Positions 2,777 through 23,859 of a DNA stretch of 32,164 nucleotides are shown piece after piece. The DNA is from a virus. The stretch is from IMG/VR virus record IMGVR_UViG_3300034418_003171, positions 1 through 32,164 of that record; one strand, written 5' to 3'. Position 1 is the stretch's first letter, and each line of letters opens with the position of its first letter. Below the pieces are notes generated by a model. The model was not told the DNA's origin. It searched no databases and worked only from the letters and a program-made list of their open reading frames with translations. A program made the translations under genes and the position numbers.

Positions 2777-3367
2777 GTGTCTAGGGATTTATCAAGCGGC
2801 GTATCATCTACCTTAAACGACGATGTTATATATCCATTTTTTGCTGTTGAGTTAAACTTTGATAGCGGTACTTTTACGGCTGCGGATGGAACAACCCAAG
2901 ATCGCGTTCTGAGGCTTTGGACGGGCTTGGGAACTCTGACATATGATGGCAACCAATATTTTGGAACTGGTAATATGCTAGACATTTCCAGCATCGAAGA
3001 AAGCACAGAGATTGCCGCTAAAGGGGCAACTATAACTCTGAGCGGTGTGCCTAGCCAAGTTGTATCTTTGGCTCTCTCTGAGCAATATCAGGGACGTGAA
3101 TGCACAATCTATTTTGGTATGACGTCCTCTCAATCAAGTCTGACAGAAGTGTTTACGGGATATATGGATCAGATGAGTATTGATGAGGGTCCAGAGAGTT
3201 CTACGGTTCAATTGACTGTAGAGAATAAATTGATTGACTTGGAGCGTCCACGGGTCGGAAGGTTTACTTCCGAATATCAAAAATCTATTTACTCCGAAGA
3301 TAAGGGTTTTGATTTTGTCGAAAGTCTTCAAGAGCAAAAACTGACTTGGGGAAGGGCTGGTGTCTAG
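2777..3367 (+). CDS. Tail tip / baseplate-hub-like protein
   Basis: A 196-residue protein in the gpL or GTA-hub (DUF2163-like) position. It begins with GTG (MSRDLSSGV), ten bases after the previous stop. Visible pattern: an N-terminal beta segment with YPFFAVELNFDSG, a TLTYDGNQYFGTGNML strand pair, a repeated beta meander, and the end segment GFDFVESLQEQKLTWGR, which resembles hub proteins that carry a terminal WGR. Its last 8 bases overlap the GTG of the next gene. Probably connects the distal tail to the tip protein. The family name is from memory of gene order and short motifs. Confidence 0.65.
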   Translation: MSRDLSSGVSSTLNDDVIYPFFAVELNFDSGTFTAADGTTQDRVLRLWTGLGTLTYDGNQYFGTGNMLDISSIEESTEIAAKGATITLSGVPSQVVSLALSEQYQGRECTIYFGMTSSQSSLTEVFTGYMDQMSIDEGPESSTVQLTVENKLIDLERPRVGRFTSEYQKSIYSEDKGFDFVESLQEQKLTWGRAGV

Positions 3368-3815
3368 TTATCAGCAAGAGTTTCTTGCAAGCGTATATAT
3401 CGAAATACAAGAACTGATCAAAGAGCATTGGCAAGAGATTGCGGTCAATAAGTCCAAGATAAAACTCAATCCTGATTGGGACGCTTATGAGGAACTTGAG
3501 AAAAATAATCGCCTCAAGATATTTACAGCGCGAGAAGATGGAAAGTTGGTTGGATATTTCGTTGTTATAACGGGCGTCAACATTCATTACAAAGACCATA
3601 TGTTTGCACAGAATGATGTTCTTTATCTTTCAAAGGAACATCGAAAGGGATTTACGGGGATCAAGCTTATTAAGTTTGCAGAGCGGTGTTTGAAGGAAGA
3701 TGGGATTTCCGTTCTTAACATAAACACCAAGGCTCATAAGCCCTTTGACAAACTGTTGGATTATATGCGCTATAATATGGTAGAACGGGTCTATCAGAAA
3801 TATATAGGTGACTGA
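3360..3815 (+). CDS. GNAT-family acetyltransferase in tail module
   Basis: A 151-residue protein starting with GTG (MSSYQQEF). The core looks like a GNAT fold: a substrate strand with DGKLVGYFVVITG, a beta4 strand (NDVLYLSKEHR), then a pyrophosphate-loop-like RKGFTGIKLIKFAE where GNATs have R/Q-x-x-G-x-G/A, a GISVLNINTKA strand and a final YMRYNMVERVYQKY segment. GNATs move an acyl group from acyl-CoA to an amine; the substrate cannot be read here. It occupies the slot usually held by the NlpC/P60 tail peptidase (gpK) between hub and tip genes, overlapping both neighbours (8 bases and 1 base), so it belongs to the late tail transcript. It could instead act on host proteins after infection. 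Confidence 0.7.
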   Translation: MSSYQQEFLASVYIEIQELIKEHWQEIAVNKSKIKLNPDWDAYEELEKNNRLKIFTAREDGKLVGYFVVITGVNIHYKDHMFAQNDVLYLSKEHRKGFTGIKLIKFAERCLKEDGISVLNINTKAHKPFDKLLDYMRYNMVERVYQKYIGD

Positions 3816-10731: not shown

Positions 10732-11484
10732 TCACGAAATTTCTGCATAGATAATACAATGGGCTTTTCCCTCATTTAGTGTGGGGGATTTAGGTATCTG
10801 TTTTATAAGACTTATTTGCCTGTGAGGGTCTAGACTGTCTTTTACTTTGTCATTCCAAAAAAGATGAGATTGTTCAATAAGAACATTATGGTTCAGCCTA
10901 TAGTCCTTTATTTGAAAGCCTATAGATGAAAGTGTTTTTTCCCAGTTATCTTTTGACCGAAAAGACATTTCCCATCTACTAGAGTAATAGTAATCTGCGC
11001 CAAAATAACAGTAGTCTTTAATTAGAATTTTATCAGTATAGTTCGAAATGTTCGCAAGAGCTTTCGGCCCATCCATGTGGCACAAGCTGTCAAAGAATAC
11101 TGCAATATCAAATCTGTCATTTGAGAAATAGTTTTCTGCTTTTGTTAAGTAGCAGGTTAATAGTGGCGATACGGCTTTGTATTGCGATTTTGAATTTGTA
11201 ATACAAGTAATTCGGCACTCTGGTTTGTGCTTGGAAATGTAACGCGCTGGACCTCCATATCCACAGCCAACATCCAGTATTGATTTGACGCCATTTAGAT
11301 AAGGAAGTGCATTATGAGTATAGTTCTCAAATAGATTTAGATGCGGACCTTTCTCCATATAATGATAGTTAAGGTCATCATCTAAATAAGCTTTTAGATT
11401 TAAATCGTATAGATCAGTTATATTTTTTTCCCCTCTACGCGCAAACTTCGCACAAATTTTTCTAGCTCTTTTCTTGCTCTCCAC
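10732..11484 (-). CDS. Class I SAM-dependent methyltransferase
   Basis: A 250-residue protein with the Rossmann SAM-binding motif ILDVGCGYGGPARYI at residues 69-83, a second strand motif (RITCITNSK) like small-molecule methyltransferases of the type 11 group, an acidic motif (FDIAVFFDSLCHM) and an ILIKDYCYFG post-motif strand. The substrate cannot be read from sequence. It is the last gene of the leftward operon starting at 13.85 kb. The GTG start at 11484 has no clear ribosome-binding site and overlaps the upstream small gene by 67 bases, so either the true start is internal or translation enters from the upstream frame (GGGG then A7 lies at the junction). Could modify a host metabolite, RNA or a surface glycan. 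Confidence 0.75.
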   Translation of the reverse strand: MESKKRARKICAKFARRGEKNITDLYDLNLKAYLDDDLNYHYMEKGPHLNLFENYTHNALPYLNGVKSILDVGCGYGGPARYISKHKPECRITCITNSKSQYKAVSPLLTCYLTKAENYFSNDRFDIAVFFDSLCHMDGPKALANISNYTDKILIKDYCYFGADYYYSSRWEMSFRSKDNWEKTLSSIGFQIKDYRLNHNVLIEQSHLFWNDKVKDSLDPHRQISLIKQIPKSPTLNEGKAHCIIYAEIS

Positions 11485-20004: not shown

Positions 20005-20053
20005 TAATATATCTAACATGATTTAGGAATAAATAAACATACGGAGGTAAAAA

Positions 20054-20629
20054 ATGAGCCAGTGGGCGGCAAAAGAGATCGAACAGATTGCAGTTGAAGA
20101 TTTAATTCCATACGACAGAAACCCTAAAATTCATCCAGATACTCAAGTCAAACAGCTTGCAAATAGTATCCGTGAATGGGGTTGGACTATGCCTATTCTA
20201 GTAGATGAAAACACACAGGTAATTGCGGGGCATGGGCGTCTATTCGCAGCCAAAGAGTTAGACATGAAAGAGGTTCCTTGTATTAGAGCTACTGGATGGA
20301 CGGAACAGCAAAAGAAAGCCTATGTTATTGCAGATAATAAACTTGCAGAAAATGGCGAGTGGGACACTAATGAGTATTTTTCTCAGCTAAAGGAAATGAG
20401 TAATGACGGCTTTGATCTGGGACTTATGGGTGTTGATATTGATATGTCAGCTTTTAACTATAACCCAGTATATGAGCCAACATTTGATGCGTCAGAGATT
20501 GACGAAAGCAAGATGGTAAAGGCAGACCAATATATGCAGCGCGACCAAGAGAACAGATTGATGGGTCGGGAGGGGACAGAAGTAATCTGCCCTCATTGCA
20601 TGGAAACATTCGTATTTACGGGTAGATAA
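20054..20629 (+). CDS. ParB/Srx-fold nuclease-like protein with C-terminal zinc knuckle
   Basis: A 191-residue protein with a ParB N-terminal-like domain (residues about 8-100): VEDLIPYDRNPKIHPDTQVK, SIREWGWTMPILVDENTQ, then VIAGHGRLFAAKEL (the GxxR box) and YVIADNKLAENGEWD. The C terminus has EVICPHCMETFVFTG, one CxxC pair. Strong GGAGG eight bases before the ATG marks it as the first gene of a six-gene overlapping cassette. In phages this domain is often fused or adjacent to DNA methyltransferases and modification enzymes. Not a chromosome-segregation ParB; no parA or parS is seen. Confidence 0.85.
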   Translation: MSQWAAKEIEQIAVEDLIPYDRNPKIHPDTQVKQLANSIREWGWTMPILVDENTQVIAGHGRLFAAKELDMKEVPCIRATGWTEQQKKAYVIADNKLAENGEWDTNEYFSQLKEMSNDGFDLGLMGVDIDMSAFNYNPVYEPTFDASEIDESKMVKADQYMQRDQENRLMGREGTEVICPHCMETFVFTGR

Positions 20630-20925
20630 TGTCCATAGAAAGATTGTCAGAGAACTTGAGGAACGCGACCTATAAGTTCGCAAAGACAATGCCCTACATG
20701 CCGCATTTCTACACTGTTGGAAAAACGTGGGATGACTACAAAGAATTTCTTTGGACATGTCATGCAATACAGGAACATGGGATTAAGCAGCAGTTTTTCA
20801 AAGACCCTAGAAAATACTTTTATTTAGATGGTTGGCGATATTGGATTATGGACAAAGACCCCAATGACGCGGCAATCATAAACCGAGAGCGTGAAACAAT
20901 TAGGATGCCAAAATGGTCAGAATAA
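20629..20925 (+). CDS. Small phage protein linked to methyltransferase clusters
   Basis: A 98-residue aromatic-rich protein: MPYMPHFYTVGKTWDDYKEF, CHAIQEHGIKQQFFK, KYFYLDGWRYWIMDKDP and IINRER. I recall the pattern MPH-YT...F...I...G....Y.YLDG..YW.M....INR as a small domain, alone or attached to phage SAM methyltransferases. Function unknown. Shares one base with the ParB-like stop and overlaps the next gene by 13 bases. Confidence 0.6.
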   Translation: MSIERLSENLRNATYKFAKTMPYMPHFYTVGKTWDDYKEFLWTCHAIQEHGIKQQFFKDPRKYFYLDGWRYWIMDKDPNDAAIINRERETIRMPKWSE

Positions 20926-21482
20926 TTGTAAAAGCTATGCCATCCAGACAGCCGTATATTGATTATTTACGGAAATATTTGCCGCAAGCCGAATTTTGCA
21001 TGGACCAAGGTAAAGGCGCATTTGATACTTTTTTGCGTGCTTTGAAAATGGCTGGTACAGAGCCATGCATACATATGGAAGAAGATGTCATTTTGACCGA
21101 TGGGTTTTACAACAAGATACATGAGATCATAGCAAAAAAGCCCAATAACTTTATACAGTTTTTTTCGATGCGGCAGAAGGACCTTACAGAAGGTTCGCGT
21201 TGGGATAATAATTTTCTAATGAACCAATGTTGGTATGCACCAATGTTCTATTCGGAAAAGATGCTTAAGTATGCGATGGGATGGTACTTGAAAAATGGAA
21301 AAATACACCCAACAGGAACAGATACTATGGTGTGTGATTGGTTAAAGTCTCGCAAGGAAAAGTATTGGATACACTGCCCAAGTCTTGTTGATCATCGAAT
21401 TGGCAAGTCAGCTATAGACCCGCGCCGTTCTTCTAAGCGTCAATCACTAACATTTAGGAATGGTATATATGACGATTTATAA
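20913..21482 (+). CDS. Glycosyltransferase-like protein (GT-A type)
   Basis: A 189-residue protein: MVRIIVKAMPSRQPYIDYLR, a GKGAFDTFLRALKMAG helix, then the strand and acidic motif CIHMEEDVILTDGF at residues 52-64, equivalent to the DxD site where GT-A enzymes hold a metal and nucleotide sugar. Later FIQFFSMRQKDL, MNQCWYAPMFYS and HCPSLVDHRIG complete a short GT-like fold. Target unknown; lying between a ParB-like gene and a methyltransferase-like gene suggests sugar addition to modified DNA, but a surface or protein target is possible. AGGA upstream of the ATG; overlaps both neighbours. Confidence 0.65.
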   Translation: MVRIIVKAMPSRQPYIDYLRKYLPQAEFCMDQGKGAFDTFLRALKMAGTEPCIHMEEDVILTDGFYNKIHEIIAKKPNNFIQFFSMRQKDLTEGSRWDNNFLMNQCWYAPMFYSEKMLKYAMGWYLKNGKIHPTGTDTMVCDWLKSRKEKYWIHCPSLVDHRIGKSAIDPRRSSKRQSLTFRNGIYDDL

Positions 21483-22065
21483 CTCAGCATTAAAAAACGG
21501 CACAAAGCAATTCGAGGGATACCCGCCCACACAAAGGTTTGAACATGAGGGCTGCATCGGTATGCGGCGTAACATAATAACCGAGGGGTATTTTGCAGAG
21601 TTAGAAACCTGTGATATTATTTATTGCGAGCCACCATTCCCTGCGGGAGTAAAGGTGTTTGATGAGCGAGCTAAAGAAAAGACATCATCTTATAACGATT
21701 TTGCCCACCAGTTTGCAGTGCTTTGGGAAAGACTTTCACACAAACCAAGATTGGCTATTACTAACAAGCGGTTAGAAAAAGCACTTCCAAAACCAGATGT
21801 GCAAGTAAAAGTCAGGCTGAATACCAATTGGGAAACACTTAGCTGTTGGGGCATAACACCACCTAGCGGAATGAGTAATCTAGGGGTGTGTGAATATCTG
21901 GGTAAGACATTCAATAGAATGGGGGATATTACATGCGGCTATGGTGTTCCTGTCTTGCACTTTAAGAAAGTAAAATCTGGCAATACATTTGTAGCATCAG
22001 ATTATGACGCTCACTGCATTACAGTTTTAAGGATGTTGATGAATGAAAATACACCTCAAAGATAA
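21469..22065 (+). CDS. DNA methyltransferase-like protein, permuted, with EPPF motif
   Basis: A 198-residue protein from the ATG at 21469 (MTIYNSALKNGTKQFEGYPP), preferred over an ATG three codons earlier because of AGGA spacing. It has CDIIYCEPPFPAG at residues 48-60, equivalent to catalytic motif IV (D/N/S-PP-Y/F) of amino-DNA methyltransferases but with E in the first position. Near the end MGDITCGYGV (151-160) resembles SAM motif I and ASDYDAHCI the acidic motif II. Motif IV before motif I is the permuted beta-class order. Short for a full enzyme, so it may be specialised or inactive. Overlaps both neighbours (14 and 23 bases). Confidence 0.6.
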   Translation: MTIYNSALKNGTKQFEGYPPTQRFEHEGCIGMRRNIITEGYFAELETCDIIYCEPPFPAGVKVFDERAKEKTSSYNDFAHQFAVLWERLSHKPRLAITNKRLEKALPKPDVQVKVRLNTNWETLSCWGITPPSGMSNLGVCEYLGKTFNRMGDITCGYGVPVLHFKKVKSGNTFVASDYDAHCITVLRMLMNENTPQR

Positions 22066-23200
22066 TGTTTGCGATGCAGCATTAGAGCGTATTCGTTACA
22101 TCTTTGACGAGTTTGAGAACGTAATAGTATCGTTTTCAGGCGGCAAGGATAGCACAGTAACCCTTGAGATGGCGTTAATCGTTGCGCGTGAAAGAAATCG
22201 CTTGCCGCTTAAAGTATTATTTTTAGATCAGGAAGCCGAATGGCAGTGCGTAATTGACTATGTGCAAGAAGTCATGGAGCGGGATGAGATTGAACCGATG
22301 TGGTTTCAAATGCCCATCCGTTTGACCAATAGTACATCGAATGAGCAACACTATCTGCATTGTTGGGAGGACGGTAGCGAATGGATGCGCGAAAAAGTCC
22401 CTTACGCTATTACAGAAAACGATTATGGCACAGATCGGTTCCACGAACTTTTCCCCGCAATATACAAAAAGCACTGGGATGGGCAAAGGCTTGCTGTTTT
22501 GGCAGGGATCAGGGCAGAAGAAAGCCCCGCTCGACTAGCGGGACTAACAACGGCGGCGACTTATAAGTGGGTTACATGGGGTAAACATCCAAACAAAAGC
22601 CGAGAGCATTACAATTTCTACCCCCTGTATGATTGGTCATATACTGATATTTGGAAATCCATCCATGACAATAATTGGTCATATTCCAAAGCGTATGATT
22701 ACTTTTATCAATATGGAGTAAGCCCAACCAAGATGCGCGTGTCAAATCTTCACCATGAAACAGCAGTTCATCAGTTGTTTTATTTACAGGAGATTGAGCG
22801 AGACACATGGAACAAGCTGACAAAGCGTCTAGGCGGTATTAATCAGGCACGGCATATGACGAAAGAGGATATGTTCCAAGCCAAGAAACTTCCATATATG
22901 TTCAAGGATTGGAAAGAATACAGAGATCATCTGTTGATAAATCTTGTTACTGATCATGATTACCAAGAGGCCATGCGTAAGAAGTTCGCGCAGATGGACA
23001 ATGTTTATGCTGCAATGAAAGATATATCCAAGCTGCATAAGGTGCATGTTGCTACAGTCTTAGCACAGGATATTGATTTCACTAAATGCAGTAATTTCGA
23101 GCAAGGGCCGTATGCTATAACTTATCGTCGTTGGAAGCGCGGCGACACGAAGTTTGTGCAGCGGTCAGAACATAGGGACTGGATACCAGTAAAGACATGA
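22043..23200 (+). CDS. IbrA-like PAPS-reductase-family protein (PP-loop)
   Basis: A 385-residue protein of the PP-loop/PAPS reductase superfamily. The nucleotide loop VSFSGGKDSTVTLEMAL is at residues 29-45, with LKVLFLDQEAEW after it, LAVLAGIRAEESPAR further on and a YPLYDWSYTDIW segment typical of this group. It matches the IbrA type (DUF3440), first described as an activator of Eib prophage genes in E. coli and always paired with a ParB-domain partner, as here. PP-loop enzymes adenylate or reduce sulfur substrates, and DndC of phosphorothioation systems is a relative. The role in this phage is open. AAGGA precedes the ATG; the stop overlaps the partner start by four bases. Confidence 0.82.
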   Translation: MKIHLKDNVCDAALERIRYIFDEFENVIVSFSGGKDSTVTLEMALIVARERNRLPLKVLFLDQEAEWQCVIDYVQEVMERDEIEPMWFQMPIRLTNSTSNEQHYLHCWEDGSEWMREKVPYAITENDYGTDRFHELFPAIYKKHWDGQRLAVLAGIRAEESPARLAGLTTAATYKWVTWGKHPNKSREHYNFYPLYDWSYTDIWKSIHDNNWSYSKAYDYFYQYGVSPTKMRVSNLHHETAVHQLFYLQEIERDTWNKLTKRLGGINQARHMTKEDMFQAKKLPYMFKDWKEYRDHLLINLVTDHDYQEAMRKKFAQMDNVYAAMKDISKLHKVHVATVLAQDIDFTKCSNFEQGPYAITYRRWKRGDTKFVQRSEHRDWIPVKT

Positions 23201-23859
23201 AGATCATTAGTCAACTAGAGCAAGCCTTACATGGGCTAAGTGAGAACGACAAAATAGAAATGATCGAAAAGATCAAAGATCACTTGCATAAGGAAAGCCC
23301 AATCCAACAGCCCGTTGATCGGGTCTATTGGGTTGATGTTGATAAAGTAGAGGCTAACGATTACAACCCCAACAGTGTAGCGGGTAAAGAAATGCGTTTG
23401 CTTTACACCTCAATCAAGCATGACGGATACACGCAGCCCGTAGTAACCATCTATGACGAAGAAAAAGGCAAGTATGTCATCGTAGATGGGTTTCACCGCT
23501 ATTTTATCTGTAAGAGCAATCAGGACATCAGAGATCGTAACAAGGGCAGACTGCCCATCGTTGTCATTGAGAAAGACATCAATGATCGTATGGCCTCAAC
23601 AGTCCGTCACAATCGGGCCAGAGGCGCACACTCAGTCGATGGCATGGCGAACATGGTATTCTCTATGTTAGAGGAAGGTTGGGGCGATGCGGAAATCTGT
23701 AACCAGTTGGGTATGGAGCCAGAAGAATTATTGCGGCTAAAGCATATTACTGGCTTCTCAAAGCTATTTGTAGATGCCGAATACAAAAAGGCATGGGTAA
23801 CTAAACAGCAAATCTTGATTAAAAAGAAGTGGCAAGATGAGCATGGGGTTGACCAATAG
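23197..23859 (+). CDS. IbrB-like ParB-domain protein
   Basis: A 220-residue partner of the IbrA-like protein. After a helical start (MKIISQLEQALHGLSENDKI) the ParB/Srx domain shows VYWVDVDKVEANDYNPNSVA, SIKHDGYTQPVVTIYDEEKG, then KYVIVDGFHRYFICK (GxxR-type box as DGFHR) and STVRHNRARGAHSVDG. The last third is an HTH-like helical region (EEGWGDAEICNQLGMEPEEL). IbrA and IbrB are needed together in E. coli. The four-base overlap here supports equal production. Second ParB-type protein of this cassette. Confidence 0.85.
   Translation: MKIISQLEQALHGLSENDKIEMIEKIKDHLHKESPIQQPVDRVYWVDVDKVEANDYNPNSVAGKEMRLLYTSIKHDGYTQPVVTIYDEEKGKYVIVDGFHRYFICKSNQDIRDRNKGRLPIVVIEKDINDRMASTVRHNRARGAHSVDGMANMVFSMLEEGWGDAEICNQLGMEPEELLRLKHITGFSKLFVDAEYKKAWVTKQQILIKKKWQDEHGVDQ

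Follow-up and report, generated by a model that had tools for sequence, protein, structure and literature searches.

A phage cassette with a ParB/PP-loop core and an exchangeable enzyme slot, probably a DNA modification module

Introduction

The Mom protein of phage Mu represents a GNAT-fold route to adenine modification, and IbrA and IbrB have been reported as transcriptional co-activators in the eib prophages of Escherichia coli. ParBc proteins are encoded on many of the phage contigs that carry CmoX, a DNA carboxymethyltransferase (PMC12783734). The packaging module of a Mu-like cryoconite phage contains a 2 kb region in which methyltransferases come and go and, in one variant, an acetyltransferase replaces them; the legend of its map lists a ParB gene (Bellas et al. 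2020, PMC7468147). Here we analyzed a 32,164-nucleotide stretch of viral DNA (IMG/VR record IMGVR_UViG_3300034418_003171, positions 1 to 32,164; hereafter the window) that contains a run of six overlapping genes. These encode a ParB-domain protein (ParB1), a protein of 98 amino acids (aa), a glycosyltransferase-like protein (GT), a methyltransferase-like protein (MTE) in a position that we call slot X, an IbrA-like PP-loop ATPase and an IbrB-like second ParB-domain protein. We conclude that this cassette is probably a phage DNA modification or hypermodification module, in which a shared ParB/PP-loop core is combined with exchangeable finishing chemistry. Loci compared with the window are given L numbers.

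Results

The original prediction, made from the window alone, described six overlapping genes behind a strong ribosome-binding site. Rereading of the sequence confirmed the genes, their coordinates and overlaps and the leading GGAGG, and located all of the motifs named for their products (CxxC, MEED, EPPF, DITCGYG and SGGKDS). The six open reading frames (ORFs) are intact, frameshift-free and on the plus strand, spanning 20054-23859 of the window, as follows.

20043 to 20047, plus strand: GGAGG ribosome-binding site, read from the sequence, 6 bases 5' of the ATG at 20054 and heading the six-gene run
20054 to 20629, plus strand: ParB1, a stand-alone ParB_N protein with a C-terminal CxxC (Pfam ParB_N, phrog_620); conserved core
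20629 to 20925, plus strand: 98-aa protein, conserved within the cassette; conserved core, putative adaptor domain
20913 to 21482, plus strand: GT, a small GT-A-like glycosyltransferase with MEED (phrog_854, alignment)
21460 to 22065, plus strand: slot gene X, here the methyltransferase-like MTE with EPPF for DPPY (AlphaFold model, Foldseek)
22043 to 23200, plus strand: IbrA-like PP-loop ATPase (SGGKDS) with DUF3440 (Pfam, phrog_2302); conserved core
23197 to 23859, plus strand: IbrB-like second ParB_N protein (phrog_2159, alignment); conserved core

Successive genes overlap by 1, 13, 23, 23 and 4 bases. The third overlap shrinks to 14 bases if MTE starts at the ATG at 21469, and this is probably the true start rather than 21460, since the counterpart of MTIYNSAL is where its relatives begin. 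The region contains six ORFs of 98 aa or longer, compared with a mean of 0.76 in dinucleotide shuffles. It is not a product of chance, because many other phages have intact, conserved homologues arranged in this order. The same phage is present in four other IMG/VR contigs that were compared, with 99.97-100% identity over 11.8-16.6 kb.

Scans with the GT and slot proteins gave 86 distinct GT-bearing loci, in which GT was 39-65% identical to that of the window. The usual order across divergent IMG/VR contigs is ParB1-(98 aa)-GT-X-IbrA-IbrB-TerS-TerL, and in a second common order ParB1 follows IbrB. Among 85 distinct GT loci, IbrA was found in 81, IbrB in 77 and ParB1 in 64, counts that are affected by the many contigs that are cut. 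The six-gene order was thus recovered in other phage genomes, with the genes together in conserved order rather than scattered, which strongly supports the earlier proposal that they belong together. GT usually joins the conserved part, which comprises ParB1, the 98-aa protein, IbrA and IbrB. The exact set of six as a unit was not borne out; the position of the methyltransferase is exchangeable and is mostly occupied by a different enzyme. Two cultured Microbacterium phages carry a variant of the cassette. The genome of Hendrix ends with GT, a second GT, a methyltransferase, a GNAT protein and a PAPS reductase and starts with IbrB and two ParB proteins, with TerL two genes on; these ends are adjacent, as the genome is circularly permuted (PMC7302621). 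The end of the Rasputia genome encodes three glycosyltransferases, an acetyltransferase, a methyltransferase and a PAPS reductase.

The gene directly after GT was 2-oxoglutarate (2OG) oxygenase-like in 42 loci, GNAT in 12 and MTE in 8, and was missing in 8. Slot X is a socket: enzymes of unrelated chemistry replace one another there, even where the phages themselves are almost identical. Up to the 3' end of GT, the marine phages L069 and L066 are 96.5% identical over 4.0 kb and 92.2% identical over 2.2 kb, and from the first bases of IbrA they are again 93% identical; the slot between these points holds MTE in L069 and the 2OG-like gene in L066, a clean one-gene replacement. L072 repeats the MTE version of L069. 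Assembly chimerism is an unlikely source of this difference, because MTE is present in both L069 and L072 and the other version in L066, L068 and L071. The IbrA closest to that of the window, from L019 (77% identical), accompanies a 2OG-like gene, and DNA similarity between the two loci ends within GT and resumes at the start of IbrA. A GNAT gene is present in one of L043 and L037 and cleanly absent from the other. When slot contents were mapped onto a 63-row IbrA tree, the 7 rows labelled MTE required 7 changes, and well-supported branches forced at least 6 of these; the 2OG-like label, though strongly clustered, required 8 changes. The figure of about seven independent MTE entries is only approximate, as the tree was built in quick mode with no mixture model and some long branches were flagged.

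This picture was extended by a census of 109 islands that run between ParB1 or the 98-aa gene at one end and IbrA at the other. GT occurred with a 2OG-like gene in 30 islands, with GNAT in 8 and with a methyltransferase in 6; paired methyltransferases were found in 5, GT alone in 5, GNAT alone in 5 and other glycosyltransferases with a methyltransferase in 4, besides many single combinations. Between 13 and 15 islands were initially taken as empty, a count that was rejected when most proved to hold an enzyme-fused 98-aa domain or another gene order. We do not claim that slot enzymes are often dispensable, because only L226 and L229 look truly empty. Several islands hold further genes. An NAD-dependent epimerase gene (Pfam) lies between GT and the 2OG-like gene in L041 (1588-2559), and TylF-like methyltransferases occur in the islands of L131 and L224 (Pfam). 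An AdoMet decarboxylase (Pfam AdoMet_dc, 7.8e-12) stands beside a DPPW methyltransferase in L219 (1905-2282); decarboxylated S-adenosylmethionine (SAM) would turn a neighbouring transferase into an aminopropyl transferase. Three tandem GT copies precede the 2OG-like gene in L056 (4824-6522), and this triplet, like the three glycosyltransferases of Rasputia, perhaps builds a short glycan. An unclassified 248-aa protein lies between the methyltransferase and IbrA in L184 (6563-7306), an island of the L184/L185 type.

An AlphaFold model of MTE was built from 8 homologues and had a mean predicted local distance difference test (pLDDT) score of 86. Its top Foldseek matches were the beta-class DNA amino-methyltransferases M1.HpyAVI (3e-5), CcrM (2.3e-4), M.BceJIV (2.3e-4) and MboIIA (2.5e-4), and all 23 PDB matches at E <= 0.001 were DNA methyltransferases. 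EPPF (residues 57-60) precedes DITCGYG (residues ~156-162), which places motif IV before motif I, and the secondary structure of the model fits this permuted order. MTE is predicted to adopt the permuted class I fold of beta-class DNA amino-methyltransferases, so that the structure prediction bears out the original description of a permuted, motif-variant methyltransferase. MTE is unnamed by Pfam, PHROG, NCBIfam and PADLOC; the Pfam family MTS (0.0013) fell below its curated cut-off, and the DNA methylase family PF01555 had no match in the window at E <= 0.001. Single-sequence searches started from two different members found no match to MTE in cultured phages.

The motif IV glutamate (EPPF, EPPW or EPPY) is kept in 26 of 29 members of the MTE family, and a canonical DPPW methyltransferase (MTD) lies directly beside an EPPx protein in L167, L169, L171, L172, L175 and L186. 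Both observations would suit a variant of the modification proposal in which the window MTE is a non-catalytic partner, comparable to METTL14 with its EPPL, and another enzyme catalyzes the reaction. We consider this variant somewhat unlikely. The SAM motif GDxTCGYG and the ASDxD motif both stay strongly conserved in the family, unlike those of a dead partner; the EPPx protein is the only slot enzyme in L161, L178 and L179; and no DPPW partner adjoins MTE in the window. The tandem beta-class methyltransferases (L167, 5366-6580; L169, 2094-3310; and those of L171, L172, L175 and L186), one with DPPW and one with EPPY, EPPW or a variant, form a pair in the slot that is reminiscent of METTL3/METTL14.

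The 2OG-like slot protein of relatives is ~170 aa long and has an invariant PLHxD...SPHQ, with H75, D77 and H121 (HxD...H) invariant among 12 members. Its model (pLDDT 94) was closest among solved structures to 2-oxoglutarate/non-heme iron oxygenases and cupins (Foldseek; 7v4m, 6.8e-4; AspH, 8.9e-4), with template modelling (TM) scores of only 0.35-0.43. With a double-stranded beta helix in the model, the protein is predicted to be 2OG-Fe(II) oxygenase-like. No match to it was found in cultured phages by a single-sequence search, and profile searches of the PDB found no sequence relative of GT, the 2OG-like protein, the methyltransferase or the 98-aa protein.

ParB1 matched Pfam ParB_N (2.4e-7) and phrog_620 (4.5e-50), the ParB part of the ParB-methyltransferase fusions of phrog_498 (1.7e-45) and the PADLOC profile for the Type II MTase N-terminus (7.5e-32). 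Going by these profile matches, ParB1 (12 members in the alignment) corresponds, in stand-alone form, to the domain that is fused to DNA methyltransferases in phrog_498. The 98-aa protein belongs to no family in Pfam, PHROG, NCBIfam or PADLOC, and its cassette members share the motif KTMPxxPHxYT...YKYWxM...INR. In relatives this domain is fused, as judged by eye, to AdoMet-decarboxylase-like (L202, 5309-6001; L204, 3169-3837), SET-like (a phage cassette in L207, 5273-6001, with the SET-like part upstream), class I methyltransferase-like or GNAT-like sequence. A 93-aa gene of Hendrix was considered as a further member and discarded, as the match was circular (the gene was already in the alignment).

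GT matched the glucosyltransferase family phrog_854 (1e-7) and had no match in plasmids. The E and D of its acidic E-[ED]-D motif are invariant in the alignment, and the GT-A assignment comes from this motif and family similarity. Glyco_transf_25, a lipopolysaccharide family, was weakly matched in two GT family members (best 0.0085). This similarity and the epimerase in the L041 island are consistent with a reading in which GT and X act on a glycan of the cell surface or on a protein of the virion (as in seroconversion or superinfection exclusion) and ParB/IbrA are merely linked to them. Such a role is highly improbable, as the island lacks genes for membrane or transport proteins, the PP-loop ATPase and the two ParB proteins would be left with nothing to do, and the slot methyltransferase has a predicted DNA methyltransferase fold.

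IbrA matched PAPS_reduct (2.9e-17) and DUF3440 (6.8e-7) in Pfam and phrog_2302 (6.2e-84), with weak PADLOC matches to DndC (1.4e-7) and BrxP (3.5e-9), and IbrB matched phrog_2159 (2.9e-73). The initial gene assignments therefore hold for ParB1 (phrog_620), GT (phrog_854), IbrA (phrog_2302/PAPS_reduct) and IbrB (phrog_2159). In the window, as expected of an IbrA/IbrB pair, a ParB gene comes after the PP-loop PAPS-reductase-like gene. Of 85 distinct IbrA loci flanked on both sides by 3.5 kb or more, 84 have an IbrB no further than 1.5 kb away. Pairs that lack GT are found in many cultured phages (Streptococcus thermophilus CHPC1230, Mycobacterium Nebkiss, Pseudoalteromonas XCL1123). These would accord with a role of IbrA/IbrB as transcriptional co-activators of phage genes, as in the eib prophages, with GT and X as unrelated cargo between regulators. 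This is very unlikely; GT and X are fixed inside an overlapping run in dozens of loci, whereas cargo with no tie to the regulators should also turn up at other genome positions, and the PP-loop ATP site of IbrA is invariant among members.

The IbrA family (71 members) has no conserved redox cysteine or cysteine pair, and the sole cysteine to reach 75% is C107. The lack of a conserved pair argues against sulfur transfer of the Dnd kind and would favour a role in adenylation. It also bears on a further alternative, in which the target is a nucleotide, RNA or a small nucleoside-like compound and the product is incorporated later or is inhibitory. In keeping with this, the IbrA profile matches FAD synthase and CysD; PP-loop enzymes (TilS, MnmA, TtcA), GTs, GNATs and methyltransferases also act on RNA or small molecules; the best Foldseek match of the 2OG-like protein (6.8e-4) is a hydroxylase of nucleoside-antibiotic synthesis; and some islands encode small-molecule-type SAM methyltransferases. 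A target other than DNA is nevertheless quite unlikely, given that each cassette encodes two ParB-domain proteins, that the slot methyltransferases have DNA amino-methyltransferase folds and that the cassette frequently adjoins the terminase.

Two genes elsewhere in the window resemble modifying enzymes. A 151-aa protein with the look of a GNAT acetyltransferase is encoded among the tail genes (3360-3815, plus strand), and a 250-aa class I SAM methyltransferase-like protein (LDVGCGYG) is encoded apart from the cassette (10732-11484, minus strand).

Discussion

In the proposed modification module, ParB1 and the 98-aa adaptor would bring the enzymes to phage DNA, and IbrA would activate the base or the incoming group by adenylation, with IbrB as a ParB-fold partner or nucleoside triphosphatase to IbrA. 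GT would add a sugar and X would make the last change. For the window phage this could be a SAM-dependent group transfer by a variant beta-class methyltransferase, and for other phages an oxygenase-like or acyltransferase-like reaction. Exchange of X would change the final chemical mark on an otherwise nearly identical phage, and such swapping is probably driven by an arms race with host restriction or other DNA-reading defences.

We infer that DNA is the substrate from the DNA-methyltransferase fold of the slot protein, from ParB1 as the stand-alone form of a methyltransferase-fused domain, from the frequent terminase adjacency, from the published co-occurrence of ParBc with CmoX and from the logic of mark-swapping against restriction. 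Sugar enzymes that join the island in relatives (the epimerase of L041 and the TylF-like proteins of L131 and L224) support this proposal. Several results weigh against it. The structural matches of MTE are moderate (TM 0.40-0.56), its EPPF departs from the catalytic motif (D/N/S)PP(Y/F/W) by a Glu for Asp/Asn/Ser, and the protein is 201 aa long, with no large target-recognition insert in the model. Given this Glu and the lack of a large insert in the model, MTE may not act on ordinary DNA bases; ParB1 could stand in for the target-recognition domain. One relative has the 98-aa protein fused to a SET-like sequence, and the SET fold usually modifies proteins. No GT family member with a tested substrate was found. 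The thymidylate-synthase/hydroxymethylase family PF00303 was absent from all 21 records scanned (the window and 20 related, several of them fragments; the control was positive in 9 genomes), so that there is no obvious primary handle for a sugar, unlike in the glucosylated hydroxymethyl-pyrimidine DNA of the T-even type. For hypermodification based on TET/JBP, a scan with the Tet_JBP dioxygenase family PF12851 matched 0 of the 21 records, but its control was silent too. An unusual phage DNA modification, as originally predicted, is the best reading of genes that co-occur in this way, and the chemistry as a whole, like the DNA substrate, is something we infer.

A broader proposal, which we put forward tentatively, is that of a widespread and hitherto undescribed family of phage DNA hypermodification systems in which the ParB/PP-loop core and GT build a common intermediate and one exchangeable gene sets the final chemistry, leaving near-identical phages chemically different. 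Candidate finishing groups are methyl, hydroxyl, acyl and, where an AdoMet decarboxylase is present, possibly aminopropyl. If this is true, the family would be a natural combinatorial system that writes different chemical marks on phage DNA, and L069/L072 versus L066 and the window versus L019 would be ready-made swap pairs with which to study the effect of a mark. The widespread IbrA/IbrB, usually annotated as a PAPS reductase and a partition protein, would gain a function as well, as would a methyltransferase family in which glutamate has taken the place of the catalytic aspartate. The cultured relatives Hendrix and Rasputia make the proposal testable now.

No published description of the cassette was found; literature coverage was limited, so prior absence is not proven. 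The region of the cryoconite phage is very likely the same kind of slot, and we regard it as an early example. The accessible parts of that report (Bellas et al. 2020, PMC7468147) present one phage as an example of flexible genes and contain no ParB-PP-loop cassette, GT or oxygenase members, or distribution. The GNAT proteins in the slot of some relatives, absent from the window cassette, recall Mu Mom and showed no sequence similarity to it by BLASTP. Dnd phosphorothioation and type-4 BREX (PMC10853773, PMC12839542) likewise combine a PP-loop/PAPS-reductase-like enzyme with a ParB-superfamily protein (DndB), but IbrA lacks the conserved cysteines of DndC, and PADLOC found no match to DndA, DndD or DndE among the six proteins, with only the weak DndC and BrxP matches. 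The CmoA-CmoX-CmoY system (PMC12783734) shares a DNA-modifying SAM enzyme, ParBc neighbours and the use, in a second step, of an ATP-dependent adenylating enzyme. CmoX, however, is a relative of C5-cytosine methyltransferases with an SPPC motif and CmoY is an asparagine-synthetase-like ligase, whereas the window has a permuted beta-class fold in the slot and a PP-loop protein as its ATP enzyme. The IbrA/IbrB of E. coli prophages belong to the same two families, side by side (phrog_2302, phrog_2159); in the window this pair instead forms the end of a cassette that also encodes ParB1, the 98-aa protein, GT and an exchangeable enzyme.

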